DNA of 64,000 nt from Ferrimonas lipolytica (GTDB taxonomy: Bacteria; Pseudomonadota; Gammaproteobacteria; Enterobacterales; Shewanellaceae): the NCBI RefSeq assembly GCF_012295575.1, contig NZ_CP051180.1, positions 2,480,001 through 2,544,000 on the forward strand, written 5' to 3'. Shown here one piece after another: positions 7,815-58,232 of the stretch. The position numbers and the translations under genes are program-made. Numbering within the stretch: position 1 is the first letter of the stretch; the number at the start of each line of letters is the position of its first letter. The notes under the pieces were generated by a model. It was not told where the DNA came from. It did no database searches and saw only the letters and a program-made list of their open reading frames with translations.

Positions 7815-7970
7815 GTACCAACTAAGTGTTGTTCTTTCCAATGCTGTTAAAGCCCTAGCTAGGCGAATTTCGATACAAAGGGAAAGCACTATCGTCGTTG
7901 ATGTTCTGCCGCATTGGAGCAGTTCAGAGAAGTATTTTCGACTGCGACCTAATGCACGGGGGATTCCAAA
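7815..7970 (+). repeat. GGCTGTGT element, copy 1a (truncated)
   Basis: Contains the left part of the repeat (GTACCAACTAAGTGTTG onward, through the GCCGCATTGGAGC block to GGATTCCAAA). It lacks the GGCTGTGT end and everything 3' of GATTCCAAA, where copy 1b begins. More diverged than the other copies: its internal hairpin arms no longer pair well. Lies 5' of the valine operon promoter. Confidence 0.85.
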
Positions 7971-8257
7971 GGCTGTGTACCAATTAAGTGTTGCTGTTTC
8001 CAAGGCTGTTAAAGCACTGGCTAGACGAGCCACAAGGGTAAAGCACTACCGCTATTGATCTTCTGCCGCATTGGAGCAGTTCAGCGAAGCATTTTGGGCT
8101 GCGACCTAAGGCAAGGAGGATTCCAAAGGGGGCGAAGCTCCCCCCCTAATGCATACAACAATGTGCCGTCGCCACCGCGACATCGTCCCCTAAAAGCACC
8201 GAAATCGGTGAAGCCGAAGGCTTAAGATAAACTTCAACAGCTAACTACGACACAGCC
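7971..8257 (+). mobile_element. GGCTGTGT element, copy 1b (full length, nested in 1a)
   Basis: A full 287-bp copy from GGCTGTGTACC to GACACAGCC. It starts exactly where copy 1a stops. The flanks ATTCCAAA and TATCGGGT do not match, so no target duplication can be read here, unlike at most other loci. It contains the conserved blocks: AAAGCAC, GCCGCATTGGAGC, the GGGGGCGAAGCTCCCCCC hairpin, CACCGAAATCGGTG and AAGCCGAAGGCTT. Confidence 0.88.
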
Positions 8258-8407
8258 TATCGGGTTGGTATTAATAAGCTATTGGCGAATAACGCGCAGT
8301 AAGAGAGGATGCTGCAGTCGGTGCTACTAACAGCAAATTGGCATTATTGAGGTTATGCGGAGGTTAGAACGGCGCCGCTAAGAGAAGATTTTATTCCAAC
8401 CATAAGT
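8258..8407. other. Non-coding stretch without recognised feature
   Basis: The roughly 150 bases between the repeat pair and the metA terminator hold no convincing ORF or conserved motif that I can see. Confidence 0.5.
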
Positions 8408-8436
8408 AAAACGGCGGTCACTCCCACTGCCGTTTT
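8408..8436 (-). terminator. Probable metA terminator
   Basis: An 8-bp stem AAAACGGC/GCCGTTTT with a 13-base loop, followed on the minus strand by TTTTAC. It lies 26 bases after the metA stop. Confidence 0.6.
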
Positions 8437-8461
8437 GTTAATGAACTGGATTACAGCAGCA

Positions 8462-9397
8462 CTATTCTATTGGCATTAACCCAGACATGTCTGACAGATC
8501 AAACGGCGTTTGCTGGTAAACGTAGTAGTTGAGCCAATTTGTTAGGAGTAATGCGCCGTGTGCATGCCAGCGAGCAAACGGTTGCCCAGTAGGATCATCG
8601 CCAGGAAAGTAGTTCGCGGGGATCAACGGTTCTTGCCCCGACGCGAGATCGCGTCGATATTCATCCAATAACGTAGTGCGGGTATATTCAGGGTGGCCGG
8701 TAACAAACAGGTTACGGTTGTTGTTCGACACCACCAGATAGGCACCGGCATCGTTCGATTGCGCCAACACATTCAGTTCAGGGTGAGCATTAAGCCAATC
8801 CAATGGCACCTGAGCAAAACGCGAGTGCGGCACCCAAAATTCATCATCGAAACCTCGGAGTAACGGTACATGTTGATGTACCCGTTGGTGGCGAAACACT
8901 CCCGAGATCTTGGTATCACGCAGTTGTCGTTTAATGCCGTAGAGATGATAAAACGCCGCATGAGCAGCCCAACAGAGAAACAGCACCGAGGTTGCATGGG
9001 TTTGTGACCAATCGATGATGGACTGGATCTCTTGCCAGTAATCAACCTGTTCAAACTCTAACTCACCCAGCGGTGCGCCAGTGATGATCAAACCATCGTA
9101 GTTATTGTGCTTAACCTCATCGAAGCTGCGATAGAAATCGTCCATATGATCACAAGGGGTATGCTTTGAGGGGCGATTATGGATCCGCAATAACTCAACA
9201 TCGACTTGTAGCGGAGTATTACCGAGCAAGCGCAACAACTGGGTTTCGGTCTCAATCTTATTCGGCATCAAATTAAGGATCAGCAGTTTCAATGGACGAA
9301 TGTGCTGTTGGGCGGCTCGTTCATCCGACATAACGAAGATATTCTCTCCTCGTAATATCCGTGAAGCGGGTAAACGACTGGGAACCTTAACCGGCAT
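8462..9397 (-). CDS. metA: Homoserine O-succinyltransferase
   Basis: First committed step of methionine synthesis: acylation of homoserine. 311 residues from the ATG at 9397 ([10 protein letters not shown], as in E. coli MetA), preceded by GGAGAG. An upstream Met at 9421 lacks this. [39 protein letters not shown], the catalytic Cys in [21 protein letters not shown], and [18 protein letters not shown] with its Glu and His are the family signatures. Succinyl- versus acetyl-CoA use is not proven by sequence, but the gammaproteobacterial type is usually succinyl. Two met boxes overlie its promoter. Confidence 0.96.
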
Positions 9398-9437
9398 TGC
9401 GATGCTCTCCTTAACAAACAATTGAACAGTTATATCA

Positions 9438-9453
9438 AGACATCTAGACGGCT
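9438..9453. promoter_or_regulatory. MetJ operator (two tandem met boxes)
   Basis: AGACATCT followed directly by AGACGGCT. Each 8-mer matches the MetJ consensus AGACGTCT at 7 of 8 positions, in the tandem arrangement MetJ needs. It lies about 40 bases upstream of the metA start, so S-adenosylmethionine repression is expected. Confidence 0.85.
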
Positions 9454-9547
9454 ACAACTCCAAATCCACTGATGATGTCATGGTTTCATTGTAAAGCCTT
9501 GAATGACTCCCTAAAATTCAATCATTCTCTGGTCAGAACTGAATTTC

Positions 9548-10267
9548 ATGTCGAATCTAAGTGCCATCATCGTCGGTGCCAACTCCGCACTGTCTCAACA
9601 ACTTGCACTGCAACTGCATCAACAGGGCGTTAAACTCGGGTTGATGGCTGCTGATCCCAGCGGACTAACGAAGCTCCAGCAGCAAACTGACTGCCGCTTA
9701 GTTGAGTTAGATATCCGCAACGCCGAGCAGTGTCAGCAGGCATTCAATCAACTGTGGCAGGACTTAGACGGTGTTGCCTTGGTGGTTATCAACACCGCCG
9801 CCAACGGCCTTGATCTTGAGTTACCGTGGCAACTAGACCAAGCGATTATCGACGTTAACGTGCAGGGTTTTGCCGCTATCGCTAATGCCGCTTTTAAGCA
9901 GATGGAACAGCAAAAGTTTGGCCAAATTGGCTGCTTCACCTCGATTGCCGGTGAACGTGGTGGCCCTCAAACCGCCTTCCACGCCAGTAAGGCGTTCCAA
10001 CAAAACTATTTGCAGGGATTGCGCCTACACGCGCAACGACTAAAGCTGCCGATTATCATCACCGATCTACGCTTGGGTTACTTAGATAAGATGCACGGCC
10101 GTGGCAAGGGTATTTGGGCAGCGTCATTAGATAAGGTCGTCAAGCAATCACTTAAGGCACTGCGTCGTGGTAAGCATACGGTTTACGTCACCAAGCGTTG
10201 GCGCATTGCTGCGCTGATGAGCAAGGTGCTGCCGGAGTTTATCTATAACCGGCGCCGCTATAAGTAA
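9548..10267 (+). CDS. SDR-fold protein lacking the catalytic tyrosine
   Basis: A 239-residue short-chain dehydrogenase relative with an N-terminal cofactor loop (IIVGANSALSQQLALQL). A Ser remains in CFTSIAGERGG, but the expected YxxxK reads FHASK (about residue 143), so the catalytic Tyr is Phe. The usual NNAG reads NTAANG. The C-terminus is very basic (LRRGKHTVYVTKRWR, IYNRRRYK), which suggests contact with membrane or nucleic acid. Divergent from metA. Substrate unknown; possibly a weak enzyme or a binding protein. Confidence 0.8.
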   Translation: MSNLSAIIVGANSALSQQLALQLHQQGVKLGLMAADPSGLTKLQQQTDCRLVELDIRNAEQCQQAFNQLWQDLDGVALVVINTAANGLDLELPWQLDQAIIDVNVQGFAAIANAAFKQMEQQKFGQIGCFTSIAGERGGPQTAFHASKAFQQNYLQGLRLHAQRLKLPIIITDLRLGYLDKMHGRGKGIWAASLDKVVKQSLKALRRGKHTVYVTKRWRIAALMSKVLPEFIYNRRRYK

Positions 10268-10393
10268 TGCCATAACAGACCTAACAACGGCACAGATTGC
10301 TGCCATGGTCACAGTTGTGTTTGCACTGCAGGCCTATGATTTGTTGGTAATGCGAGTAAAATCCGAGTTAATCAGTCAAGAATTAGAATTATC

Positions 10394-11281
10394 ATGATCC
10401 CGACCCAATTAGTTCCACTCCCAAGCATGGGCGTGATCCGTGCCACCGGCGCCGATCGCAAAACCTATCTGCAAAGCCAGTTAACCTGTGATCTGGTTAA
10501 GTTGCCTATCGGCCAATGGAGCTTTGCTGGCCACTGTGACCCGAAGGGTAAGATGATTGCCGCATTCCGGTTGGCACACCTAGCTGATGAAATCTTAATG
10601 TTGATGCCAACTTCATTGCTGCAAGCTGATCTGCCGGCACTGAACAAATACGCGGTATTCAATAAAATCGATTTGCTCGATGCGACCGAATCATTGCAGC
10701 GTTTTGCCTTAATCGGTGACGATGCTCTAGCGCCACTGGCCAATTGGAGTGGCGACGCTAACCTTCGTCACAGTGGCGATGCCATCGCACTGATTGATGA
10801 AGGCCGTGCCGTGGTTGTGCTACCAGCAGGCCAAGCGTTACCAGAAGAGCTTGCGCAGCTCCCACAAGGTGAGCAGAACGACTTTATCGCATCGGAGTTA
10901 CTCGCGGTTCGACCATGGTTTGAAGCCCAGCACAGTGGCGAGTTTGTGCCACAGATGGTCAACCTCGATGCCATCGGTGGCATTCAATACGACAAAGGTT
11001 GCTACATCGGCCAAGAGACCATCGCTCGGATGCACTTCCGCGGTGGCAACAAGCGCGCATTATACGTATTGGCAACTAGCGTCGATGCAACAGGCGAACT
11101 GCAACTGCAACTGGGCGATAACTGGCGCCGCGCCGGAACCATTATTGCCTCGGTAATCAGTGGCGAGCGTCAGCTGTTAACTGTGGTAATGAATAAGGAA
11201 TTACCAGAACAGCCACAATTTCAACTGGGTGAGCACAGCGCCACCTTGCTCGAACGTCCATATCCATTGTTTGGCCAATAA
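10394..11281 (+). CDS. ygfZ: tRNA-modifying protein YgfZ (folate-binding, Fe-S cluster support)
   Basis: A 295-residue member of the YgfZ/GcvT-like folate-binding family. YgfZ acts with tetrahydrofolate in maintaining some Fe-S enzymes, including MiaB. The family hallmark K-G-C-Y-x-G-Q-E is present as YDKGCYIGQETIARMHFRG near residue 200, with the essential Cys. Preceding residues LQSQLTCDLVKL and GHCDPKGKMIAAFRL match the N-terminal GcvT-like region. It is followed by its own hairpin terminator and repeat copy 2. Confidence 0.93.
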   Translation: MIPTQLVPLPSMGVIRATGADRKTYLQSQLTCDLVKLPIGQWSFAGHCDPKGKMIAAFRLAHLADEILMLMPTSLLQADLPALNKYAVFNKIDLLDATESLQRFALIGDDALAPLANWSGDANLRHSGDAIALIDEGRAVVVLPAGQALPEELAQLPQGEQNDFIASELLAVRPWFEAQHSGEFVPQMVNLDAIGGIQYDKGCYIGQETIARMHFRGGNKRALYVLATSVDATGELQLQLGDNWRRAGTIIASVISGERQLLTVVMNKELPEQPQFQLGEHSATLLERPYPLFGQ

Positions 11282-11303
11282 GTGCTACAGCACTGCAAAG
11301 AGT

Positions 11304-11321
11304 AAGGGCCTAACGGCCCTT
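11304..11321 (+). terminator. ygfZ terminator
   Basis: Stem AAGGGCC/GGCCCTT with a 4-base loop, then TTGC. Copy 2 of the GGCTGTGT element begins 5 bases after the stem, within what was the T-tract. Confidence 0.7.
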
Positions 11322-11325
11322 TTGC

Positions 11326-11614
11326 GGACTGTGCCGTAGTTAGCTGTTGAAGTTTATCTTAAGCCTTCGGCTTCACCGATTTCGGTGCTTTTAGGGGACG
11401 ATGTCGCGGTGGCGACGGCACATTATTGTATGCATTAGGGAGGGAGCTTCGCCCCCTTTCGAATCCCCCTTTGCCTTAGATTGCAGTCCAAAACGCTTCG
11501 CTGAACTGCTCCAATGCGGCAGAAGATCAATAGCGGTAGTGCTTTACCCTTGTGACTCGCCTAGCCAGTGCTTTAACAGCCTTGGAAACAGCAACACTTA
11601 ATTGGCACACAGCC
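11326..11614 (-). mobile_element. GGCTGTGT element, copy 2
   Basis: A 289-bp copy in reverse orientation, from GGACTGTGCCG to GGCACACAGCC. Inserted at the ygfZ terminator. Flanking octamers CCTTTTGC and CTTTTTTG share only 5 of 8 bases, so this is an older or eroded insertion. On the plus strand it contains AGGGGACGATG followed by a 66-codon ORF that recurs in other copies. Confidence 0.88.
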
Positions 11615-11776
11615 CTTTTTTGATCCTATCACCATGGTCAGCTAAACGATAAGTTGAACTAGCTGACTCTGCCGCCTTACCAATCAATTTAATTTTCATC
11701 TTAATGACTAAATAGTGACTTACACTGGCATTACCGTCTATTTTTAGACAATGGCGTAGGGAACAGTGAGGTTGAG

Positions 11777-11974
11777 ATGGAGATACTAAACGCGCGGGAA
11801 CTCGACCCAATGATCCTAATTGGGATTGTTAATGAGAAACTTCGTCACGGTAGTAATAATTTGGCCGATTTAGCTGCTGAGATGGAACTCGATAGCTTGC
11901 AACTGGAGCAACAACTGCTGGATTTGGGCTACCAATATCAGCACGACACCAACCAGTTTATTCGCTGCAGCTAA
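11777..11974 (+). CDS. DUF4250 domain small protein
   Basis: A 65-residue protein. The sequence LDPMILIGIVNEKLRHGSNNLADLAAEMELDS...LLDLGYQYQHDTNQF matches the DUF4250 pattern (DPxxLLSxVNxKLRD..SLxxLxxDLxIDxxxLxxRLxxIGYxYxxxxNQF). It looks like a small helix-turn-helix fold, but no function is known. GAGG precedes the ATG and a strong terminator follows, so it is probably a monocistronic gene. Confidence 0.75.
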   Translation: MEILNARELDPMILIGIVNEKLRHGSNNLADLAAEMELDSLQLEQQLLDLGYQYQHDTNQFIRCS

Positions 11975-12020
11975 CCTTTAAGGCCTGTGACAGCGACATA
12001 ACCGATTCAATAAATACAAC

Positions 12021-12046
12021 AATGGCGTGCTTAAGGGCACGCCATT
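12021..12046. terminator. Bidirectional intrinsic terminator
   Basis: A perfect 10-bp stem AATGGCGTGC/GCACGCCATT with a 6-base loop and TTTT on the right. It ends the DUF4250 gene and may serve convergent fpr. Confidence 0.88.
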
Positions 12047-12076
12047 TTTTAACTCAGCCTTGTGCTGTCGCTGCAC

Positions 12077-12820
12077 TTACCAATACTTTTCAACGGTGAT
12101 CTGGCCAGGAGTACGACGTAAATTTTTGCGCAGCCCCATGCTTTCCAATACTGCAACGGTGTCGCGAATCATATCCGGATTACCGCAAATCATGGTTTGG
12201 CTTCGCGCTGGTGCTATTGGTACGTCGGCGGCGGCTTGAATCTCTCCATTGAGCAATAGCTCAGGGATCCGCCCTCGGAGGGTTCCCTCTTTATCCTCAC
12301 GGCTAACAATAGGAACAAAACGGAAGTTATCTGGGTATGCTGCTTGAATTGATTCAATCAACTCAAGGTAAGCTAAGTCCTCACTTTGCCGGACCGCGTA
12401 TACCAATACGAAAGTTTCGTAGCGTTCCCAGCTTTCTTGAGACTGTAAAATAGATAGGAATGGACCAACCGCGGTACCGGTTGCAAACATCCAGAGTTCG
12501 CGTCCAGCGGGCACCTCATCTAAGGTAAGAAATCCATTCGGGCGCGTGGAAACCATCACCTCGTCACCAGGGGTTAGATCTTGTAGGTGCGGCGACAGCT
12601 CACCCTCCTCTACCGTCACTGCCAAAAATTCTAATACCGACTGCGACGGAGAATTAACAAATGAATACGCCCGCTGAACTCGTTCCCCACCCTCTTCCCG
12701 CGCTAGCTTTCCAAACTGACCAGCGACAAATTTATCTACCGGTGCATCGACCTTGAGGCTAAATAAGCGCTCATTCCAGTCGATTCGTTCAACTACTTTT
12801 CCCTGTACCCAATTGCTCAT
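12077..12820 (-). CDS. fpr: Ferredoxin/flavodoxin-NADP+ reductase
   Basis: FAD enzyme exchanging electrons between NADPH and ferredoxin or flavodoxin. 247 residues from the ATG at 12820 (MSNWVQGKVV), preceded by GGAGAGG; the ORF extends 16 codons further but without a ribosome site. RAYSFVNSP is the FAD-binding R-x-Y-S motif, and ATGTAVGPFLSILQ and MICGNPDMIRD are the NADP-binding motifs. It ends in VEKYW, as E. coli Fpr does, which is typical of subclass I bacterial enzymes. Confidence 0.94.
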   Translation of the reverse strand: MSNWVQGKVVERIDWNERLFSLKVDAPVDKFVAGQFGKLAREEGGERVQRAYSFVNSPSQSVLEFLAVTVEEGELSPHLQDLTPGDEVMVSTRPNGFLTLDEVPAGRELWMFATGTAVGPFLSILQSQESWERYETFVLVYAVRQSEDLAYLELIESIQAAYPDNFRFVPIVSREDKEGTLRGRIPELLLNGEIQAAADVPIAPARSQTMICGNPDMIRDTVAVLESMGLRKNLRRTPGQITVEKYW

Positions 12821-12950
12821 GGCATCCTCTCCATCGTGGTACCTCAGCGCAACTGAAGACCTGTCCAATCAACCCATCGTATCCTTAAAGTGTAGTCTAA
12901 CTGGCTACATTCCAGTCATTTTCTTTTATATTCAATAAGCTATAACGAAA

Positions 12951-12974
12951 ACAACCTCGCCAGTGCGAGGTTGT
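12951..12974 (-). terminator. Symporter-gene terminator
   Basis: Stem ACAACCTCG/CGAGGTTGT (9 bp) with a 6-base loop, followed on the minus strand by TTTTCG. About 20 bases after the stop of the symporter gene. Confidence 0.75.
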
Positions 12975-12994
12975 TGAACAGCAGGTGTGGCGAC

Positions 12995-14248
12995 TTAGTT
13001 TTCAGTAACCAAGCTGCTTTGCTGCTCACGCTCACTACGGTCAACCATGGTTACCACGGCAGCATCACCAACAACGTTGGCTGCCGTTACAAACATATCG
13101 ATGATGCGGTCAACAGCGATAATCAGCGCAAAAGCGGTTTCTACCGGTAGGCCCATTTGGTGGATCAGGACGCCAATCATTACTGCACCACCACCCGGAA
13201 CACCACCAGCACCAACAGACAACAGGAATACAAAAGCGATAAGCGCTGGCAATTGCTCCGTGGTAATTGGCGCACCATAGGCGTTAGCTAGGAAGAACGC
13301 CGCAATGGTGATGTAGATTGAAACACCACCCATGTTCATGGTTGCACCTAGCGGAACCCCAAAGCCAGCGGTTGCTTTACTAACACCCAACTTTTCAGTC
13401 AAGGTGCGCATAGTAACTGGAATCGAAGCATTCGAGCTGGCACAAGAGAAGGCAAACAGCATTTGCTCTCGGGTTTTCGTGCGGAACTCGGCAGCAGAGA
13501 TGTCGGTAAACAGGGATACAAACGTAGGGTATACCACCAACATCCACAAACATAACAAACCAACAATCAACGCGATGTAACCAATCACCGAGGTGAAGGT
13601 ACTGGCATCTAAGGTGGCACCTAACTTAACCATCAAGGCGAAAACGCCAATTGGTGCGCCGCGCATAACCATGGAGATCAGCGCCATCATAATCAGATTG
13701 GCTTTACGGAAGCCTGCAGCAACCCCCTCTACTTGTTTTCCTAGTTGCTTCAAGATGAAGCCAAACAGCAGCGCCATAAAGATGATCTGCAACATGTTGC
13801 CATCGGCAAATGCTTGGAACGGGTTGCGAGGGATAATGTCGGAAATCAATGCGGCAATGTTTGGCAGCTCAGTATTACTGATGGCTGAGCCTGCCAGTTG
13901 CGGCAGTTGGGCGCCAACACCCGGCTGCAGTAATAGCGCCACAATCAGGGCAACCGAAATGGCGACTAAAGTATTGGCAATATAAAGGCCGAACGTTTTA
14001 CCGCCCAAACGGCCAAATGCCTTGGAGTCCGGCAGTTCAGTCATGCCACTGATGATTGATACAAATACCAGCGGTACAACCAACAACATAATGAGGTTAA
14101 CGAACATGCTGCCAATGGTCGCAGCTAAAGTAACAAGACTGTCTGCCCACGCGGCACCGTCAGCAAAACCGCCACGGAGCAGCACACCAAGGACCAGACC
14201 GGCAAAAAGGCCGATAAAGATGCGCGTGGAAAGGGAATTCTTTGGCAT
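12995..14248 (-). CDS. Dicarboxylate/amino acid:cation symporter (DAACS family)
   Basis: An inner-membrane Na+- or H+-coupled carrier of 417 residues with about eight membrane spans and two re-entrant loops. The serine-rich loop FAFSCASSNASIPVTMRTL, GATMNMGGVSIYITIAAFFLA (the NMxGxxxY-type motif) and DRIIDMFVTAANVVGDAAVV (substrate-binding Asp/Asn region) identify the GltP/DctA family. The substrate (glutamate/aspartate, serine or C4-dicarboxylates) cannot be chosen from sequence. A good CRP site lies about 205 bases upstream. Confidence 0.9.
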   Translation of the reverse strand: MPKNSLSTRIFIGLFAGLVLGVLLRGGFADGAAWADSLVTLAATIGSMFVNLIMLLVVPLVFVSIISGMTELPDSKAFGRLGGKTFGLYIANTLVAISVALIVALLLQPGVGAQLPQLAGSAISNTELPNIAALISDIIPRNPFQAFADGNMLQIIFMALLFGFILKQLGKQVEGVAAGFRKANLIMMALISMVMRGAPIGVFALMVKLGATLDASTFTSVIGYIALIVGLLCLWMLVVYPTFVSLFTDISAAEFRTKTREQMLFAFSCASSNASIPVTMRTLTEKLGVSKATAGFGVPLGATMNMGGVSIYITIAAFFLANAYGAPITTEQLPALIAFVFLLSVGAGGVPGGGAVMIGVLIHQMGLPVETAFALIIAVDRIIDMFVTAANVVGDAAVVTMVDRSEREQQSSLVTEN

Positions 14249-14453
14249 AAGTGACTCTTAAATTGCTCAATGTTCGATTAATGACAGCAGAGTCTACTTA
14301 GTTACCTAGGGATAATCTAACGAACAAAAAAACATCGCCACCTCAATTAATCGCTAGTGATCAACGTCACCCGTGCAACTTAAAGAACCACAAAAACAGA
14401 TATGGCAGTTTAATTAACTGCACACCACCGAAAATGTAGACGGTTAACCTATT

Positions 14454-14469
14454 CGTGACCATGGTCACA
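14454..14469. promoter_or_regulatory. Candidate CRP binding site
   Basis: CGTGA-CCATGG-TCACA matches the CRP consensus TGTGA-N6-TCACA at 9 of 10 positions and includes a perfect 14-bp palindrome. It lies upstream of the symporter gene. The rest of 14249-14540 is A/T-rich and shows no other signal. Confidence 0.6.
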
Positions 14470-14540
14470 TCCCGTCAAATATCTATCAAAAACTCATATT
14501 GAAAGCAAAACCACCGCTATGGTTGAAGCAGCGATGAGTG

Positions 14541-15542: not shown

Positions 15543-15740
15543 GAATCCCTAATCCGCCAACAAAGGCACTCCAGCAAGTGAACGCGAGATCAAATACTAG
15601 CCCAAGCAAAACAATTAACTGGCGCGATATCAGCGGATAATACGAGTAGCGCTAATTCCGTTGGCTTGTACGCAATTGCAACGGCAGCAACAACCTACCT
15701 AAATTCAATATTTAGCAAACAAAATGTTAACGCATCGCGT

Positions 15741-15752: not shown

Positions 15753-15788
15753 CAATGGCGACAGAAATAAATTTTTCAGGGATTGATT

Positions 15789-16841: not shown

Positions 16842-16986
16842 GCTGAGGCTCGGTTAGTCGTAACACTCCCACGAACAGGTTAGCGGCTACGTGCCTGCTC
16901 ACGTTTAAAAGTAGGCGGTTACGTAGCCCCGCTCGCGAGCGGGGACAGGACAGACAGTTACTTAGCTTGCGGACGCATCGCTGGGA
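16842..16986. repeat. Diverged copy of the lysS 3' end and downstream region
   Basis: A direct repeat of 17444-17567. Both contain CTGAGGCTCGGTTAGTCG, the perfect 18-bp palindrome CCCCGCTCGCGAGCGGGG (here 16927-16944) and the tail of lysS. The last 29 bases here, read on the minus strand, still encode PAMRPQAK and a stop, with two synonymous changes from lysS. The A-tract of the lysS terminator is lost in this copy. Confidence 0.85.
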
Positions 16987-17151: not shown

Positions 17152-17427
17152 GGCGGTGTACCAACTAAGTGTTGTTCTTTCCAATGCAGTTAAAGCACCG
17201 GCTAGGCGAGTGTTGATACAAGGGCAAAGCAGTACCGCCGTTGATCTTCTGCCGCATTGGAGCAGTCCAGCGAAGCGTTTTGGACTGCGACCTAAGGCAA
17301 GGGGGCGAAGCTCCCCCTAATGCATACAAGAGTGTGCCGTCGCCACCGTGTCATAACCCTTAAGAGTACTGCAATCGGTACAGTCGAAGGCTTGGTATAA
17401 AGCTCAACACTTAACTGTGACACAGCC
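17152..17427 (+). mobile_element. GGCTGTGT element, copy 3
   Basis: A 276-bp copy from GGCGGTGTACC to GACACAGCC. Flanks AAAATAAA (left) and AAAAAAAA (right) match at 7 of 8. The right octamer is exactly the T-tract of the lysS terminator (read on the minus strand). The internal hairpin GCAGTCCA/TGGACTGC is perfect here. Lacks the short block after the CGACCTAAGGCAAGG present in other copies. Confidence 0.9.
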
Positions 17428-17435
17428 AAAAAAAA

Positions 17436-17455
17436 CCGAGCACTGAGGCTCGGTT
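17436..17455 (-). terminator. lysS terminator
   Basis: Stem ACCGAGC/GCTCGGT with a 6-base loop; on the minus strand it is followed by eight T residues, which double as the target duplication of element copy 3. Confidence 0.85.
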
Positions 17456-17538
17456 AGTCGTAACACTTCCACCAACAAGCGCGCAGCTACGTACCAGCTC
17501 ACGTTTACGTAGCCCCGCTCGCGAGCGGGGACAGACAG

Positions 17539-19041
17539 TTACTTAGCTTGCGGCCGCATCGCCGGGAACAGGATTACGTCGCGAATGGTGTGAGTGTTGG
17601 TAAACAACATCGCTAGACGATCGATACCAATACCTTGACCCGCAGTTGGTGGCAGACCATGCTCTAGAGCAGTGATGTAATCACCGTCGTAGAACATTGC
17701 TTCGTCATCACCAGACTCTTTAGCATTAACTTGAGCCTTGAAACGAGCATCTTGATCTTCTGCATCGTTCAACTCAGAGAAACCGTTAGCGACTTCGCGA
17801 CCACCGATGAAGAACTCAAAACGATCGGTGATGAAGGCGTTGTCGTCATTACGGCGAGCCAGTGGTGAAATATCAGCTGGGTATTCAGTAATGAAGGTCG
17901 GCTGGATAAGCTTAGGCTCGGCGGTTTCACCGAAGATCTCCTCCAGTAATTGGCCACAGTTCCAGAAAGTTTCAACATCAACACCAACAGACTTCGCGAT
18001 AGCAACCATGTGATCACGATCTTGAACGCCGTCGTAGGTCAACGCTTGAATGTCAGCGTGATCTGGATTGTAGTGCTTGATAGCGTCCAGCATGCTCATA
18101 CGCGCGTACTTGCCACCAAACTCAACGGTTTCGTCGCCGTAAGGCATAGAGGAAGAGCCTAAGATCTCTACCGCAACGGTGCGCAGCATGTCTTCAGTCA
18201 GATCCATCAAATCGTTGTAATCTGCGTACGCCATGTAGAATTCCATCATGGTGAATTCTGGGTTGTGGCGTGGCGATAAACCTTCGTTACGGAAGTTACG
18301 GTTGATCTCGAATACGCGATCAAAACCACCAACCACCAGACGCTTCAGATACAGCTCAGGCGCGATGCGCAGGAACATCTCTTGATCCAGTGCGTTGTGA
18401 TGGGTGATGAAAGGACGAGCCGAGGCACCACCAGGGATCACCTGCATCATTGGGGTTTCCACTTCCATAAAGTCACGCGACTCCATGTAACGACGGATAC
18501 CAGCAACCAGCTTAGAGCGGATCTTAAAGGCGTTGCGAGACTCTTCGTTAACGATAAGGTCAACGTAGCGCTGACGGTAACGCTGCTCTTGGTCCGTCAG
18601 ACCGTGGAATTTTTCCGGCAGAGGACGCAGTGCTTTAGTCAGCAACTGGTATTCACCCATATCAACGTAAAGGTCGCCTTTGCCAGACAGGTGCAACTGA
18701 CCTTTGATACCAATGATGTCACCGATGTCCAAACCACCAATCGCTTTCAGTTCTTTTTGAACGTCTTTTGAAGCGTAGCCTTGAATACGGCCAGACACGT
18801 CTTGGATAGCTAGGAATGGACCACGCTTAGCCATGATACGGCCTGCAATTGAAACGATGTGACCCGCTTCCGCCAACTCTTCTTTGCTGTTTTCGCCAAA
18901 CTCAGCCTGCAGATCAGCAGCCTTGTGAGTTGGACGCCAAGTGTTCGGGTGGCCGTTAGCGGCGCAGTTTTCGCGAATCGTGTTGAGCTTTGCACGGCGC
19001 TCGGCGATCAACTTGTTTTCGTCTTGTACTTGTTCAGTCAT
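17539..19041 (-). CDS. lysS: Lysyl-tRNA synthetase (class II)
   Basis: Charges tRNA-Lys. 500 residues from the ATG at 19041 ([11 protein letters not shown]), 13 bases after the prfB stop with AGGAAC upstream. The ORF extends to 19083 but this part overlaps prfB. The N-terminal OB-fold anticodon domain includes [23 protein letters not shown]. Class II motif 2 is [20 protein letters not shown] and motif 3 is [19 protein letters not shown]. It is co-transcribed with prfB, as in many gammaproteobacteria. The 3' end is duplicated downstream (see 16842-16986). Confidence 0.97.
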
Positions 19042-21860: not shown

Positions 21861-22152
21861 GGCAGTGTCACAGTTAAGTGTTGAGGTTTATATCAAGCCT
21901 TCGGCTCTACCGATTGCAGTACTCTAAAGGGGTTATGTCGCAGTGGCGACGGCACATTCTTGTATGCATTAGGGGGCTTCGCCCCCCTTTGGAACCCTCC
22001 TTTGCCTTAGGTCGCAGCCCCAAATGCTTCGCGGAACCACTCCAATACGGCAGAAGATCAATAGCGCTAGTGCTTTATCCCCCGTCTCGGGACATACCTA
22101 GCCGGTGCTTCAACAGCCTTGGAAAGAACAACACTTTAGTTGGTTCACAGCC
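21861..22152 (-). mobile_element. GGCTGTGT element, copy 4
   Basis: A 292-bp copy in reverse orientation from GGCAGTGTCACAG to TTCACAGCC. Flanked by perfect 8-bp direct repeats ATAAAATT (21853-21860 and 22153-22160), which is clear evidence of transposition. Its internal hairpin arms differ from the consensus but can still pair through several G-U pairs. Plus-strand AAGGGGTTATG starts a long ORF also seen in copies 2, 6 and 8. Confidence 0.92.
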
Positions 22153-40159: not shown

Positions 40160-40175
40160 GCCCACTCTGGTGGGC
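40160..40175 (+). terminator. RND operon terminator
   Basis: Stem GCCCAC/GTGGGC with a 4-base loop followed by TTAGTTTT (40176-40183). That octamer is the left target duplication of element copy 5. Confidence 0.75.
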
Positions 40176-40183
40176 TTAGTTTT

Positions 40184-40288
40184 GGCTGTGTACCAGCTAA
40201 GTGTTGTTCTTTCCAATACTGTTAAAGCACCGAAATCGGTGCAACCGAAGGCTTAAGATAAACTTCAACAGCTAACTACTGCACAGCC
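40184..40288 (+). mobile_element. GGCTGTGT element, copy 5 (internally deleted, 105 bp)
   Basis: Keeps both ends: GGCTGTGTACCAGCTAAGTGTTG and CTAACTACTGCACAGCC. The middle is missing: the left AAAGCAC block joins directly to the right CACCGAAATCGGTG block, both of which contain AAAGCACC in full copies. Flanks TTAGTTTT and TTAGTCTT match at 7 of 8, so it moved or was trimmed after insertion. The target is the RND terminator T-tract. Confidence 0.92.
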
Positions 40289-42989: not shown

Positions 42990-43271
42990 GGCCATGTAGC
43001 AACTAAGTGTTGTTGCCAATACTGTTCAGCGGCTAGGCGAGTGTTGATACGAGAGCAAAGCACTACCGCCGTTGACCTTCTGCCACATTGGAGCAGTCCA
43101 GCGAAGCGCTTTGAACTGCGACCTAAGGCAGGGGGATTGCAAAGGGGGGCGAAGCCCCCCCTAATGCATACAACAATGTGCCGTCGCCACCGCGGCACCC
43201 TTCCCTAAAGCACCGCAATCGGTAAAGCCGAAGCCTTAAGATAAACTTCAACAGCTAACTACGACACAGGC
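42990..43271 (+). mobile_element. GGCTGTGT element, copy 6
   Basis: A 282-bp copy from GGCCATGTAGC to GACACAGGC; both ends are eroded by one or two bases. The right flank ATAAAAAA is the T-tract of the brnQ terminator; the left flank AATCAAAA matches at 5 of 8. Internal hairpin arms GCAGTCCA/TGAACTGC have one mismatch. The minus strand carries the recurrent ORF, starting at GTG instead of ATG. Confidence 0.88.
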
Positions 43272-43278
43272 ATAAAAA

Positions 43279-43301
43279 AGCCCGGCCATTGAGGCCGGGC
43301 T
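43279..43301 (-). terminator. brnQ terminator
   Basis: Stem AGCCCGGCC/GGCCGGGCT with a 5-base loop; TTTTTTAT follows on the minus strand and is the target of element copy 6. Confidence 0.9.
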
Positions 43302-49261: not shown

Positions 49262-49447
49262 GGCTGTGTCGTAGTTAACTGTTGAGATTTATCTCAAGCC
49301 TTGGGCTGGTAACGGTAGTGGTATTTGAGAGGGGCTATGTCGCGGTGGCGGCAGCACCCAAAGGGGAGCTTTACCCATTGTGTCGGGACGCGCCTAGCCG
49401 CTGCTTTAACGGTATTGGTTAGAACAATACTTAGTTGCTACACAGCC
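49262..49447 (-). mobile_element. GGCTGTGT element, copy 7 (internally deleted, 186 bp)
   Basis: Reverse orientation, from GGCTGTGTCGTAG to TTGCTACACAGCC. Lost the central GCCGCATTGGAGC and GCAGTCCA hairpin parts. Flanks TAAAAAAG and TAAAAAAA match at 7 of 8; the right one is directly adjacent to the terminator hairpin of the DUF481 gene. Lies between convergent genes. Confidence 0.88.
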
Positions 49448-49453
49448 TAAAAA

Positions 49454-49473
49454 AAACCGCCAAATGGCGGTTT
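49454..49473. terminator. Bidirectional terminator of the DUF481 gene
   Basis: Stem AAACCGCC/GGCGGTTT with loop AAAT, A-tract left and T-tract right. On the minus strand it ends the DUF481 gene; element copy 7 used its A-tract. Confidence 0.85.
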
Positions 49474-49491
49474 TTTTTATGGTTAATTAGC

Positions 49492-50199: not shown

Positions 50200-50325
50200 T
50201 TATCTCTCCGTACATCAACATCTACTACTTTTGGCGCATTGTTACAGATCACTAACAGAAAAACAGCACCAACAGCGACAATCGTTCGATATATCAGCTA
50301 ATAAGCACTTATTCAGGCAAAAAAA

Positions 50326-50345
50326 ACGCCCACCGAAGTGAGCGT
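50326..50345 (-). terminator. fba terminator
   Basis: Stem ACGCCCAC/GTGAGCGT (one wobble) with a CGAA loop; on the minus strand a TTCG-type loop is followed by a run of T residues. 20 bases after the fba stop. Confidence 0.8.
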
Positions 50346-50365
50346 TGTAACATCCAGTGAAAGCG

Positions 50366-51433: not shown

Positions 51434-51516
51434 GATAGGCTCCATTTATTATGTATAAAATTTTCGGTAGCAACGGGTTTCCCCGTCGCTCTTTATGGCA
51501 TCCAGCCAATAAACTG

Positions 51517-52695: not shown

Positions 52696-52713
52696 AGATT
52701 ACCTCAATGTTTA

Positions 52714-53730
52714 TCAATCTTGTTCGGCGGTGTGCATTGCCACAGCCGTATCCAGCATTCGGTTAGCAAAGCCCCATTCGTTATCGCACCACAACAGCAA
52801 TTTCACTAGGTGACCATCAGCCACCCGCGTCTGGCTGCCGTCGATAACGCAGGAGTGTGTATCATGATTAAAGTCGATAGATACCAAAGGTGCTTGGGTA
52901 AAACCAACAATGTCAGGAAATTGCTGGATTGCTTGCTTTAAACGCTGGTTAATTTGTTCAATATCAACTCTGTCGCGCAGAGTTAACGACAGATCCATCG
53001 CGGTCACATTAGTGGTGGGAACACGAACGGCAATGGCTTCAAGTTTGTTATGCAGATTGGGCAAGATGCGTTCAATGCCGCGCGCTAAACGAGTATCTAC
53101 CGGAATGATTGATTGGCTAGCTGCACGGGTACGACGGAGATCATCATGATAAGCGTCGATCACCTGCTGGTCATTCATCGACGAATGGATGGTTGTAATA
53201 GCACCACGCTCAATCCCAAAGGCATCGTCAAGTAGCTTTAACACCGGCACTGAGCAATTGGTGGTACAAGAAGCATTAGAAACAATGCGTTCGCTACCGT
53301 TCAGTTCATGGTGATTGACCCCATAAACAACGGTGGCATCCACGTGATGATCAGCAGGGTTAGAAATGAGTACTCGTTTGGCACCTGCTTCCAAATGGGC
53401 TTGGCATGCCGCTGCAGTCTTGGCACTGCCGGTACATTCAAATACCACATCGATATTGAGCTGCGCCCAAGGTAATTGGCTTGGGTCAGCTTGATGGAAA
53501 AGCTGAATGCGATCATCCCCGACCATCAACAAGCCTTCGGCACTGTTGACTGGCAGGTGGAAGCGGCCGTGGGTGGTATCAAACTGAGTCAGATGGGCTA
53601 TGCCTTCTGGCTTAGCCAGTTCATTAATAGCAACGATCTCAATCTGATCGCGATGGCCACTTTCATAAAGCGCTCGCAAGGTGGAACGTCCGATCCGGCC
53701 ATAGCCGTTTATGGCGACGCGTAATGTCAT
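52714..53730 (-). CDS. epd: Erythrose-4-phosphate dehydrogenase
   Basis: Oxidises erythrose 4-phosphate to 4-phosphoerythronate for pyridoxal phosphate synthesis. 338 residues, GAPDH-like: [18 protein letters not shown] (NAD), the catalytic Cys in [19 protein letters not shown] and the His/Arg region. The position first in epd-pgk-fba and the E4PDH pattern [23 protein letters not shown] mark it as Epd and not GapA. Confidence 0.95.
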
Positions 53731-53854
53731 GGCTGCCCTGTCATGCGCGGAAACTATCCGATAGAAAAAACGCTCGCTATTCTAGCCCAAAAGGCGCCGT
53801 CGCTAAAGTGATTCTCATTAGCTAAGTCACTGCGCAAATGGGATAATGTGTCCC

Positions 53855-54547
53855 ATGCGATTAGATAGATTACTTAGCGGCCAGCCAAGCTGGAACCGCC
53901 GCCATGCGCAGCTGTTGTTAATCCAAGGCCGAGTGCGGGTCAATAACGAGGTGATTCGCCAAGGTGAATACGAGGTTTCTCAGTTTGCCAGCGTAGATGT
54001 CGATGACCAATCCGTACAGCACGGCAAAGCAGCGTTGTACCTAATGTTGAACAAACCGGCCGGAGTGGTTAGCGCCACCACAGATCCCGAGCACCCAACG
54101 GCGTTGTCATTGCTGCCACAATCACTGCAAACCGAACTGCATATTGCCGGCCGGCTCGACAAAGCTAGCACCGGCTTACTGCTGCTTACCAACGACGGTT
54201 TATGGTCACGCCGGATCACCGAGCCGGAATTGAAGAAGCCCAAAACCTATCTGGTCACCTTGGCTAACCCCATTGACCCCGGCACCGCTGAACGGTTTGC
54301 CCAAGGCATATATTTTGAGTACGAAGGGATCACGACCAGCCCAGCCCAACTGCAGCAGTTAGACAGCCACCGCGCGCGACTGACCATCTTTGAAGGCCGC
54401 TATCATCAAATCAAACGGATGTTCGGCCGCTTCCGTAACCCAGTGGTCGGTTTACATCGCGAGACTATGGGGCCTATCACTTTAGATCCGCTGTTAAAGG
54501 CGGGGGAATACCGTTACTTAACTAAAGCAGAAATCACGGCAATTTAG
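53855..54547 (+). CDS. rsuA: RsuA-family 16S rRNA pseudouridine synthase
   Basis: About 230 residues from the ATG at 53855 (MRLDRLLSGQ); an ATG at 53846 would add three. An S4 domain (MRLDRLLSGQPSWNRRHAQLLLIQGRVRVNNEV) precedes the catalytic domain with GRLDKASTGLLLLTNDG, whose Asp is catalytic, then KTYLVTL and FEGRYHQIKRMF. The length and S4 pattern fit RsuA (pseudouridine 516 of 16S rRNA) better than RluB/E/F, but these are close. Confidence 0.85.
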   Translation: MRLDRLLSGQPSWNRRHAQLLLIQGRVRVNNEVIRQGEYEVSQFASVDVDDQSVQHGKAALYLMLNKPAGVVSATTDPEHPTALSLLPQSLQTELHIAGRLDKASTGLLLLTNDGLWSRRITEPELKKPKTYLVTLANPIDPGTAERFAQGIYFEYEGITTSPAQLQQLDSHRARLTIFEGRYHQIKRMFGRFRNPVVGLHRETMGPITLDPLLKAGEYRYLTKAEITAI

Positions 54548-54596
54548 CGCTAAAGTCGGTATACTCTGCGCCCCTTTAATCCGTAATGGAGTCAGC

Positions 54597-55430
54597 ATGG
54601 TCGAAATCGGTCAATACAACACCCTTGAGGTCGTTAAGAAAGTGGGCTTTGGCGTTTACTTAGACGGCGACGATCTGGGTGAGATCCTGCTGCCTAAGAA
54701 ATGGGTTCCGGAAGGCACCGAAGTGGGCGCTAAGGTTGAGGTGTTCCTATACCTTGATTCCGAAGATCAGTTTATTGCTACCACCATGAAGCCAAAAGCC
54801 CAGGTGGGTCAATTTGCGAGCCTGAAATGTTCCGCAACCACCGATTTTGGTGCATTCCTCGATTGGGGCTTGGACAAAGATCTGCTGGTGCCATTTAACC
54901 AGCAAAAGAAGCCGTTCGAAGAGGGTCGCTTCTACGTAGTCTACCTCTACGTTGATCAACACACCGATCGCATTGCCGCATCCGCTAAGATTGATCGCTT
55001 CCTCGACAAGACTCCTGCAAATTACAGTAATGGCGAAAAGGTGTCGCTGCTGATTGCCGGTAAGTCCGACATCGGCTACAAGGCGATCATCAACAATGAA
55101 CATTGGGGTGTGATTTACTTCGACAGCGTCTTCAAGGACCTAAAGCCAGGCATGCGTATGCCGGGCTTTATCAAGAAGGTTCGTGATGGCGGTGGCATTG
55201 ATGTCTCCATCAACCCACCAGTCCACAAGCAGGCAGATCAGGTATCCGATCACATCATCAGTTACCTACAAAACCAGCCAAACGGATTTGCTCCGATCTA
55301 CGATAAGACCGATCCGGAAACCATTAAGCGTACCTTTGGTGTATCCAAAGCAGTATTCAAGCGCGCTATTGGTGGTCTCTACAAGTCCGGTCAGATCACC
55401 ATCCTTAAAGACGGTATCGAACTGAAGTAA
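54597..55430 (+). CDS. CvfB-like S1 RNA-binding protein
   Basis: 277 residues. Tandem S1-like OB-folds: VGQYNTLEVVKKVGFGVYLDGDDLGEILLP, then GQFASLKCSATTDFGAFLDWGLDKDLLVP, then a third domain near 140-215, and a C-terminal winged helix (DPETIKRTFGVSKAVFKRAIGGLYKSGQITI). This matches the CvfB/YitL family, which binds RNA and affects virulence and exoprotein genes in Gram-positives. Role here unknown. Strong terminator follows. Confidence 0.9.
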   Translation: MVEIGQYNTLEVVKKVGFGVYLDGDDLGEILLPKKWVPEGTEVGAKVEVFLYLDSEDQFIATTMKPKAQVGQFASLKCSATTDFGAFLDWGLDKDLLVPFNQQKKPFEEGRFYVVYLYVDQHTDRIAASAKIDRFLDKTPANYSNGEKVSLLIAGKSDIGYKAIINNEHWGVIYFDSVFKDLKPGMRMPGFIKKVRDGGGIDVSINPPVHKQADQVSDHIISYLQNQPNGFAPIYDKTDPETIKRTFGVSKAVFKRAIGGLYKSGQITILKDGIELK

Positions 55431-55443
55431 GCAGCATCAGTTA

Positions 55444-55479
55444 AAACAGGCCGCCAGCGCTCTCGTTGGCGGCCTGTTT
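55444..55479 (+). terminator. Terminator of the CvfB-like gene
   Basis: A 13-bp stem AAACAGGCCGCCA/TGGCGGCCTGTTT with a 10-base loop and TTTG. Confidence 0.85.
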
Positions 55480-55518
55480 GGGTTATAACGGTCCAATCAG
55501 CATAAGCATCAACTTACC

Positions 55519-56130
55519 ATGCCCGAACTCACTACCATCGCTCTATTTATCCCTACCTTTTTTCTGGTGTCTATTACTCCAGGAATGTGCATGTTGTTGG
55601 CACTTAGCCTAGGCATGAGCATTGGTTTGCGTCGCACCCTACCGATGATGCTTGGTGAGCTTTGTGGCGTGGCACTGGTGGCGATGGCTGCCGCCTTTGG
55701 CGTAGCAGCTATATTGCTGACCCACCCCATGTTATTTACCGGATTAAAGCTGATAGGCGGCGCTTACCTGATCTATCTTGGCATCAATTCATGGCGCAGC
55801 AGCGGCGGCTTGGTACAAACCGAAGCCGTTACAGACGTTAGTGCTAAGAGCTTGGCGATGCGCGGATTCCTCACGGCCATCGCTAACCCTAAAGGTTGGG
55901 CCTTTATGGTGGCTCTGCTGCCACCATTCTTAAATCAAAGCCAACCGTTATTACCACAAATGTTAGGGCTGTTAGCGGTGATAATGGTATGTGAGTTCAT
56001 CTGCATGAGCTTATACGCCAGCGGTGGCAGCAGCCTGCGCCGGCTGCTAAGCCACAACAACGTACAACTGATGAATCGTCTGTCCGGCTCTATTATGGTG
56101 TTCTTAGGGATATGGTTGTGGCTTGGCTAG
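55519..56130 (+). CDS. LysE/RhtB family amino-acid exporter
   Basis: 203 residues with six hydrophobic segments. FIPTFFLVSITPGMCMLLALSLGMSIGLRRTLPMMLGELCGV is the LysE signature at the N-terminus, followed by LKLIGGAYLIYLGINSWR and FLTAIANPKGWAFMVALLPPFL. Probably exports an amino acid or homoserine lactone; substrate not shown by sequence. Monocistronic. Confidence 0.9.
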   Translation: MPELTTIALFIPTFFLVSITPGMCMLLALSLGMSIGLRRTLPMMLGELCGVALVAMAAAFGVAAILLTHPMLFTGLKLIGGAYLIYLGINSWRSSGGLVQTEAVTDVSAKSLAMRGFLTAIANPKGWAFMVALLPPFLNQSQPLLPQMLGLLAVIMVCEFICMSLYASGGSSLRRLLSHNNVQLMNRLSGSIMVFLGIWLWLG

Positions 56131-56211
56131 GTAGAAGCGTTAGGGCGCGTGGTCTTTGCTATTCGTTGCTGTTGCGTATGCCGCTTAGTAAGTAGCCTAA
56201 CTAAGTGGGTC

Positions 56212-56703
56212 TTAGAGACGACGAAAACCGAGATTATCAACATTCATCTTTTGCATTTCACCGAGCATTTTGACCAACAAAATACTGCGTTTTTCACCAT
56301 CAGGCTCTTCAAAAACCGCCTCTAGGTTGGCAAAAGCTCCGTCAGTAATCACCACTTTATCGCCTTTTTTCGGCAGGTCTACTTCTGGCTCAGTTCGCCG
56401 TTTTAACGCTTCCCGTAGCCCTACCACCAGTGACAACTCAACGGGTGCTAACTCGCCGTTAGTCCGCACAATACTAGCAACATTAGGCACTCGAGTAATC
56501 TCACCGTAACCGCTGATATGCGGATCAAATCGAACAAACACGTAGTTCGGAAACAGTGGCACCATTTTGCGCTGCTTCTTGCCAGCGATGATCGCTTCGA
56601 TTTCAATCTCTGGCACATAACAGGTGATCTGGCGGTGCTCAAATGATTGCTGCACCGTTTTTTCCCTGCGTCCTTTGCAATAAAGCAGATACCACGCTTG
56701 CAT
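56212..56703 (-). CDS. rfaH: Transcription antiterminator RfaH
   Basis: A NusG paralog of 163 residues that binds RNA polymerase at ops sites and promotes long virulence and envelope operons. N-terminal NGN domain: WYLLYCKGRREKTVQQSFEHRQITCYVPEI...FPNYVFVRFD. The KOW-containing C-terminal domain follows: KKGDKVVITDGAFANLEAVFEEPDGEKRSILLVKML. Shorter and distinct from NusG. AAGAGG precedes the ATG. No convincing ops element with correct spacing is in the window. Confidence 0.93.
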   Translation of the reverse strand: MQAWYLLYCKGRREKTVQQSFEHRQITCYVPEIEIEAIIAGKKQRKMVPLFPNYVFVRFDPHISGYGEITRVPNVASIVRTNGELAPVELSLVVGLREALKRRTEPEVDLPKKGDKVVITDGAFANLEAVFEEPDGEKRSILLVKMLGEMQKMNVDNLGFRRL

Positions 56704-56866
56704 GCTTGCCTCTTAAATCCTTTGTGGTTCCACTCGATGTGGAGTAATCACTAATAATATCGAATATTTAAATTGCGCTCTAACGGTTAAGCACTTAGCA
56801 GGTGTTAACCGCCGAACTTTCATTCAATACAGTCGATTAATCCATCAATAGCGCAAGTGCCAGCGG

Positions 56867-57700
56867 TTACAGCAGAACCGTTTTGTTGCCACTGACAAAC
56901 ACCTGATCGTCAAGCACCAAGCGTAGCGCATTAGCCAGAACTGTCCGCTCAACATCGCGGCCTTTACTCGCCATCTGCTGCCACGAGTCACTGTGATCCA
57001 CTGGAATCACGTTCTGACAAATAATTGGCCCTTCATCGAGGTTGTTGTTAACAAAGTGGGCTGTGGCCCCGATAATCTTCACGCCACGTTCGAACGCTTG
57101 CTTATAGGGATTAGCGCCAATAAATGCCGGCAGGAATGAATGGTGAATATTGATGATCTGACTCGGATAGGACTCGACAAATTGCGGCGTTAAAATACGC
57201 ATGTATTTGGCGAGTATTAGATAGTCCGGTTGGTATTGATCGATTGTCGCCTGCACCGCAGTTTCATGCTCTTCGCGACTTAAACCTTCATGGCTGACGT
57301 AATGAAACGGGATATCAAACTTCTCAACTAGCCCCTGCAAATTATCGCGATTGCCGACCACCGCTAGGATATTGGCATTCAACGCATCAAACTGATGCTT
57401 AATAAGGATATCGCCAATGGCGTGTGCCTCTTTAGTCACCAGCACCACGATGTTTTTCTTGGCCATCGGCTTGAGCTGTACATGCGCGCTAGGGATGATC
57501 TGATGCAGTTCATCAAGCAGCTGCTGTTGCTCAATATCCCCCTCAATCTCACTGCGCATAAAGAACAGATTTTGAGCCTTATCGACATACTCGGTGTTCT
57601 TATCAATATTGATATTGTGCCGATGTAACACCCCAGTAATTTGATGGATCAGGCCAATTTTATCGACCGTATCAACCAATAGCACCCATTTACTGTTCAT
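56867..57700 (-). CDS. purU: Formyltetrahydrofolate deformylase
   Basis: Releases formate from 10-formyltetrahydrofolate for purine synthesis and one-carbon balance. 277 residues from the ATG at 57700 (MNSKWVLLV), with AAGG upstream. ACT domain first (LVDTVDKIGLIHQITGVLHRHNINI), then the formyltransferase-like catalytic domain: VVGNRDNLQGLVEKF, YLILAKYMRILTPQFVESYPSQIINIHHSFLPAFIGANPYKQAFERGVKIIGATAHFV (His and Asp active site). Confidence 0.94.
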   Translation of the reverse strand: MNSKWVLLVDTVDKIGLIHQITGVLHRHNINIDKNTEYVDKAQNLFFMRSEIEGDIEQQQLLDELHQIIPSAHVQLKPMAKKNIVVLVTKEAHAIGDILIKHQFDALNANILAVVGNRDNLQGLVEKFDIPFHYVSHEGLSREEHETAVQATIDQYQPDYLILAKYMRILTPQFVESYPSQIINIHHSFLPAFIGANPYKQAFERGVKIIGATAHFVNNNLDEGPIICQNVIPVDHSDSWQQMASKGRDVERTVLANALRLVLDDQVFVSGNKTVLL

Positions 57701-57933
57701 CTGCCTTTTCCTTGTCGATAACAACTAGCCTTCATCCTAACTTAGTTAGCGGCTGAGATGTTGCTGGCTATCCCATTATTTACATAAAATCAGTACGTTG
57801 AAGAACACCAAGTGCACCATATCAATAGATCTGCTAAACCAGAACACTGCCTCAATATATGTTCAAACTGATGACATTTACGCTGTAGTAAATAAGAATG
57901 CGGATTAACCTGCTCATCAACAGCCATAAAAAA

Positions 57934-58232
57934 GGCTGTGTACCAACTAAGTGTTGTTCTTGCCAATGCTGTTAAAGCACTGGCTAGGAGAGTCGCAAGA
58001 CTAAGGGTAAAGCACTACCACTATTGATCTTCTGCCGCATTGGAGCAGTCCAGCGAAGTGTTTTGGACTGCGACCTAAAACAAGGTGGATTGCAAAGGGG
58101 GCGAAGCTCCCCCCCCCCCCCCTAGCGCATACAAGAATGTGCCGTCGCCATCGCGACATACCCCTTAAGAGTGCCGCAGTCGGTACAGCCGAAGGCTTGA
58201 TATAAACCTCATCACTTAACTGTGACACAGCC
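57934..58232 (+). mobile_element. GGCTGTGT element, copy 8
   Basis: A 299-bp copy with a perfect 8-bp target duplication ATAAAAAA on both sides (57926-57933 and 58233-58240). The right copy is exactly the T-tract of the napB terminator, read on the minus strand. The internal hairpin GCAGTCCA/TGGACTGC is perfect. A C-homopolymer of about a dozen (58110-58122) replaces the shorter C run of other copies. The rest of 57701-57925 shows no feature apart from the purU promoter. Confidence 0.93.

Follow-up and report, generated by a model that had tools for sequence, protein, structure and literature searches.

The genome of Ferrimonas lipolytica, a single contig of 4,133,133 bp, carries a family of about 300 non-autonomous copies of a miniature inverted-repeat transposable element (MITE), eight loci of which lie in the stretch of 64,000 bp analysed here (bases 2,480,001-2,544,000, in the following the window). 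The copies are flanked by 8-bp target duplications, and more than half of them adjoin a G+C hairpin. We consider it likely that they are MITEs of an insertion sequence (IS) of the IS1595 family, moved in trans, which prefer A/T octamers with a G/C border and are additionally attracted to hairpins standing in the polarity of an intrinsic terminator. Full-length IS1595-family elements in other Ferrimonas species behave alike.

An element profile built on 20 copies was run with nhmmer over 1,257,133 bp, comprising the window and 60 regularly spaced stretches (a 30% systematic sample). It found 104 copies or pieces, 74 of them with both ends and 73 with flanks; 30 partial elements and one two-ended element without flanks were excluded from all counts. 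Together, 72 systematic copies and 79 further ones located by similarity make up 151 distinct copies. The left end, with at most three mismatches, occurs 280 times genome-wide and the reversed-pattern control not once. The family consensus is 291 bp long, has no transposase gene and ends in an inverted repeat (GGCTGTGTACCAACTAAGTGTTG / GGCTGTGTCACAGTTAAGTGTTG) of 23 bp with 4 mismatches, in agreement with the original prediction, which had been made from the window sequence. All eight loci listed there as related elements with GGCTGTGT-type ends were recovered by the profile. In the window GGCTGTGT is found 10 times, whereas shuffles average 2.56 and never exceed 7.

Flanking octamers are identical in 21 of the 73 copies and match at 7 of 8 positions in another 21, where shuffled partners give 0.72 and 2.65; duplications matching at 7-8 positions are thereby seen in 42/73 copies (shuffled 3.4). 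A duplication length of 8 fits best, since registers 7 and 9 give lower identity. By class, the distinct copies divide into 89 with 8 bp, 16 with 7 bp, 2 with 9 bp and 44 unclear. Hairpins adjoin 14 of the 16 copies in the 7-bp class, in which the T-run has perhaps been shortened by one base.

Hairpins were scored on either side of the octamer, with a stem of 5 or more pairs, 3 or more of them G-C, a loop of 3-8 bases and an end 0-2 bases from the octamer. By this score a G+C hairpin adjoins the octamer in 40/73 copies. Outside the window the count is 35/65, the background being 10.5% among the 37,440 intergenic octamers that hold 6 or more A/T bases (P=8e-18). Among the distinct copies 84/151 (56%) stand at a hairpin, the gap being 0 in 76 of the 84, and the orientation of the element is unbiased (47 vs 37, P=0.33). 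The offset profile of the flank motif was scored with G/C-closed stems, since A/T pairing of the T-run distorts the offsets. When control sites carry the same octamer, a hairpin is expected in 29% and seen in 56% (72 copies); when two G/C-class bases on each side are matched as well, the values are 43% and 64% (58 copies). The predicted excess over A/T-rich intergenic octamers was thus found, and stricter matching makes it smaller yet retains it. A MITE that seeks terminators, or A/T tracts beside hairpins, as originally proposed, is supported to the extent that only these 84 copies stand at scored hairpins.

One alternative is a pure sequence preference, by which a G/C-bordered T-rich octamer is read and the hairpin has no role. 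Non-hairpin insertions (55 copies whose octamers agree in at least 6 positions) do show an A/T octamer with G/C at -2 and +2/+3, and a mononucleotide position weight matrix (PWM) trained on every oriented insertion puts the predicted share of hairpin sites at 66.5%, above the 55.6% seen. Such an all-insertion matrix cannot separate sequence from structure, because a T-run with a G/C border nearly defines a terminator. The PWM from non-hairpin insertions predicts just 20.5% hairpin sites and a symmetric PWM from all insertions 24.3%. A case-control comparison of sites with at least 6 T and G/C at -2 and -3 gave 66 insertions to 414 controls where a hairpin is present and 14 to 639 where there is none (odds ratio 7.3, P=3e-14), i.e. 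hairpin sites are hit about seven times more per control site. When 24 positions, G+C and the T-run are entered as terms of a regression, the terminator-side hairpin keeps log odds of 1.5 (bootstrap 1.07-1.89). Sequence preference by itself is on these grounds an unlikely explanation, and the effects of sequence and structure have been told apart only in part.

The attraction depends on polarity. In the reversed arrangement, with the hairpin after the T-run, there were 0 insertions to 47 controls as compared to 66/414 in terminator polarity (P=0.002); with the left octamer always used, the count was 1/47 (P=0.02). Recognition of a DNA cruciform or single-strand hairpin, independent of transcription, would agree with the stem abutting the octamer exactly, with a hairpin effect exceeding that of sequence and with one wrong-sided hairpin among the G010 copies described below. 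A DNA hairpin is alike both ways, however, and the unhit wrong-side hairpins render this explanation rather improbable. Because polarity matters, the hairpin preference most likely reads the terminator during transcription. At a terminator, the hybrid of RNA and DNA is about 8-9 bp long. It is conceivable, if a long shot, that the transposase docks on the termination event and that the 8-bp target is the RNA-DNA hybrid stretch at the U-run halt; insertion would then be coupled to transcription and self-sparing by design.

For the IS1595-derived MITEs that we favour, the transposase would be supplied in trans; this genome yielded only decayed copies of its gene. It would cut 8 bp apart and favour an A/T octamer between G/C borders. 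Intrinsic terminators would provide this G/C-bordered A/T motif, with added attraction where the border is a hairpin followed by a T-run. Entry would take place at the hairpin foot, whereby the T-run would be duplicated and hairpin plus T-run left on the gene side.

The self-sparing geometry of the original prediction holds: since the T-run itself serves as the octamer and is duplicated, hairpin and T-run stay on the gene side. Retention by selection of the T-run beside the hairpin has weak backing (12 vs 4, P=0.077); a contrast of T counts in the two octamers, 37 vs 7, was rejected in favour of this cleaner count as biased by one-base slips. Empty orthologous sites keeping terminator and octamer, likewise predicted, were seen among the three window sites inspected, with one clear case behind napB in a second Ferrimonas species (G010). 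This site is near-identical, reads hairpin-TTTTTTAT and has no element: G010 shows the same hairpin and GGTTTTTTTATGCC, where the window shows GGTTTTTTTAT and then GGCTGTGT. Behind lysS, inspection by eye found hairpin and T-run in 12/13 relatives and the element in none over the 130 bases read; behind brnQ, the element is absent from all 11 relatives read by eye, of 13. The same-genus relatives include F. futtsuensis, F. kyonanensis and F. senticii.

Selection only, i.e. indifferent insertion with survival where it is least harmful, behind genes, would agree with the gene context of the 72 systematic copies, of which 40 lie in tandem, 25 in convergent and 6 in divergent regions and 1 at a stretch edge. 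Within convergent regions, however, in which both flanking genes end, 15 copies have a hairpin and 10 have none, against 697/4,156 in controls (P=2e-7, odds ratio about 9), and for octamers containing 6 or more T, or 6 or more A, the numbers are 15/3 against 274/379 (P=5e-4, odds ratio about 7); for these controls, as for the G010 background below, only terminator-side hairpins counted, and for the cases hairpins on either side (1 of the 84 hairpin cases is wrong-sided). As the hairpin excess holds in convergent regions, promoter sparing is not the explanation. Moreover, the octamer begins at the hairpin foot in those 76 of 84 copies, a register for which positional selection has no need, and IS copies with exact duplications show the hairpin preference too. 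We hold selection only to be very improbable.

A non-coding relative in G010 behaves like the window MITE. It is 179-619 bp long, most often about 600 bp (e.g. L341 1501-2102), and shares with the window MITE a 45-bp interior block at 82%. Of 29 ends, 16 with a partner were counted, 12 had no partner in reach (contig ends or more than 1.4 kb) and 1 coincided with a site already counted. A terminator-side hairpin is present in 12/16 copies (13/16 counting either side), the background being 10.4% for octamers with at least 6 A/T and 25.4% for those with at least 6 T. All 11 copies with an octamer of at least 6 T stand at a hairpin; when the G/C border is required as well, 9/9 do so against 184/399 controls (P=0.001), which again argues against sequence preference alone. 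Seven of the 12 partnerless ends have a T-rich octamer, always preceded by a hairpin, and five have an A-rich octamer, for which a hairpin would sit on the unseen side. Exact duplications (9/16) are no independent test here, since partner ends were required to match at 6/8 positions; the hairpins are.

The predicted IS, which should have GGCTGTGT ends and make 8-bp duplications, was found in other Ferrimonas species. Screening for the IS1595 transposase domain brought up 1.02-1.03 kb elements that have GGCTGTGT ends and whose transposase scores 185.4 bits with NF033547 (cut-off 75) and 42.9 bits with PF12762. In another species, G011, the IS has exact 8-bp duplications at five sites, and its transposase frame is split in two of the five. 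All five full-length copies stand at hairpins, whereas their octamers, when looked up in 400 kb of sampled G011 sequence (coding parts included), do so in 8/38 cases (P=0.0013). F. futtsuensis has four copies, all with exact duplications; hairpins are present at both scorable ones, and two more are cut by contig ends. In the F. lipolytica genome an intact IS1595 transposase was not found, only a decayed full-length copy at 3,637,573-3,638,520, with stops in the transposase and a duplication of 7/8, and a remnant at 3,351,122-3,351,479. With the decayed copy included, 7 of 8 scorable full-length Ferrimonas copies are at hairpins. The right end of the MITE is 85% identical over 33 bp to the left end of the G011 IS, and its left end 83% over 23 bp to the right end of that IS. 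Through its ends only the MITE is assigned as a putative IS1595 relative, and an IS1595 transposase would probably have mobilised it.

Several points weigh against the attraction to terminators. No scored hairpin is present at 67/151 distinct copies (about 44%), and the decayed IS copy in the own genome adjoins none; the excess of hairpins predicted by the all-insertion matrix, the G010 copy with a wrong-sided hairpin and the small size of the reverse-polarity control, 47 sites, belong here as well. The terminators are computational predictions, and stem score, gene calls and masks are our own heuristics. Outside the genus, hairpins stand at 2/4 distinct sites in Aeromonas, at 0/1 in Azotobacter, at 0/6 in Vibrio, Shewanella, Alteromonas, Pseudoalteromonas, Octadecabacter and Acidovorax together, and at 0/3 for the elements of G032, G116 and G217.

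A class-wide search for close transposase relatives gave matches at E<=1e-40 in 3/369 genomes, the own genome included; neither of the elements in the two new genomes adjoins a hairpin. Among plasmids 23 records matched and 17 were examined, 12 of which have clear ends and exact duplications. In Telluria 6/6 copies are at hairpins, and Massilia (7.5), a Burkholderiales metagenome-assembled genome (6.5) and Nitrosomonas (6.5) are barely above the score threshold, all of them without genome control. These four are not relied on, because A/T octamers in G+C-rich genomes may mostly be terminators. A small transposase tree was left unused, with six open forks, three Aeromonas rows lost and an implausibly long Massilia branch, probably from a wrong frame.

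A many-copy element in G024 (loci L137, L139 and L141-L150) has ends that match at 20/20 positions (GGCTCTGTTCCC) and a palindromic target rule, by which it enters between ACTGT-like and ACAGT-like pentamers. It resembles the Ferrimonas elements in its IS1595 transposase and in 8-bp duplications, exact in 11/12 copies, and differs in an ACTGT-N8-ACAGT-like target and in adjoining hairpins in 0/12. Given this different target rule, targeting varies between IS1595 branches.

Copies of the F. lipolytica MITE of 270-310 bp (120 copies) are about 90% identical to the consensus, equally at hairpin and non-hairpin sites. RNAalifold on 31 copies does not argue for a functional RNA, with covariation contributing -0.69 of -41.6, and an Rfam scan of the window returned 0 matches. 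Two internal stems of the consensus, e.g. at window 17152-17427, have in their loops GCGAAGC, which we take to be an unusually stable DNA mini-hairpin. The right end comes in two types, CACTTAACTGTGACACAGCC and CAGCTAACTACGACACAGCC, with mixed interiors (31-copy alignment, by eye), and this suggests exchange between copies. Three tandem copies at genome positions 909390-910299 (L074 5390-6299) have the same octamer TTTTATTT between copies, as if from unequal exchange.

The window copies and their hairpins are listed in the table. Pfam matches of the neighbour genes (YgfZ, class II tRNA synthetase of lysS type, AcrB/RND, Branch_AA_trans for brnQ, DUF481 and NapB) agree with the gene names given in the original prediction. 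The octamers tabulated for copies 3, 4, 5, 7 and 8 are as it had described them, and its T-tract targets next to hairpins were recovered by script at copies 3, 5, 6, 7 and 8 and by eye at copy 2. A simpler terminator scan finds 3/6 of the window hairpins (lysS, RND, brnQ); over two regions it barely exceeds shuffles, with 24 vs 16.2 and 23 vs 20.5 sites. Near the lysS end and terminator (window 16843-16986 and 17443-17567), three blocks of 33-65 bp are repeated about 600 bp off at 86-97% identity, beyond MITE copy 3 and a CACCAG-rich stretch.

Table. MITE copies of the window and the terminator-like hairpins beside them (window positions)
Feature	Position	Strand	Remarks
Truncated copy	7809..7972	+	Model positions 5-164, nhmmer; adjoins copy 1
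Copy 1, full length	7971..8257	+	Octamers 2/8; no adjoining hairpin
Terminator-like hairpin after ygfZ, GGGCCTAACGGCCC	11306..11319	+	By eye; overlaps octamer by one base
Copy 2	11327..11614	-	Octamers 11319-11326 and 11615-11622, 6/8
Copy 3	17152..17427	+	Octamers 7/8
lysS terminator hairpin	17436..17453	-	Script and simple terminator scan; T-run = octamer 17428-17435
Copy 4	21861..22152	-	Exact 8-bp duplication ATAAAATT; no adjoining hairpin
Terminator hairpin after RND-pump gene	40160..40175	+	Script and simple terminator scan; octamer 40176-40183
Copy 5, internal deletion, 105 bp	40184..40288	+	Octamers 7/8
Copy 6	42990..43271	+	Octamers 5/8
brnQ terminator hairpin	43280..43300	-	Script and simple terminator scan; T-run = octamer 43272-43279
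Copy 7, internal deletion, 186 bp	49262..49447	-	Octamers 7/8
DUF481-gene terminator hairpin	49456..49471	-	Sequence and script; octamer 49448-49455
Copy 8	57934..58232	+	Exact 8-bp duplication ATAAAAAA
napB terminator hairpin	58241..58261	-	Script; T-run = octamer 58233-58240

Bacterial MITEs are described as short, non-coding, intergenic elements of high copy number with inverted repeats and target duplication, all of which applies here; the accessible part of that source names terminator-like MITE sequences, but not terminators as targets (PMC10969869). With the IS1595 family (NF033547, PF12762) the present elements share the transposase of the full-length relatives, A/T-rich 8-bp duplications and GGC-type inverted repeats; a terminator preference was not found described for this family in the parts of the sources available. 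The IS1595-family element ISApl4 is reported to have A/T-rich 8-bp repeats at mostly non-coding sites, in a paper whose main text is without the word terminator (PMC12561309). According to a survey, IS1595 is over-represented between genes (PMC9208149). Group IIC introns, the known elements that seek terminators, insert beside Rho-independent terminator stem-loops (PMC7923331). Their mechanism is unrelated: they are RNA-based retroelements using intron pairing, whereas the element found here consists of DNA, has inverted repeats and duplicates 8 bp. Identity with a group IIC intron was rejected: a reverse transcriptase would not fit into 291 bp, inverted repeats and an 8-bp duplication are present, and Rfam gave no match in the window. 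Among the matches listed from open-access titles and starts of abstracts, ISfinder lying outside this scope, neither an IS1595 element nor a MITE was described as targeting terminators. We regard the family as a known kind of element (an IS1595-derived MITE) with a targeting behaviour not found in print among those matches.

The family represents DNA transposons with a measured safe-harbour preference at intrinsic terminators, in base-pair register. Some 300 insertions constitute a natural experiment, and the full-length relatives could be tested. The elements offer a model for a transposon reading target structure or transcription and suggest a possible route to DNA insertion behind genes with their stop signals unbroken. 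For F. lipolytica itself, terminator targeting may explain how a genome of 4 Mb puts up with about 300 copies.

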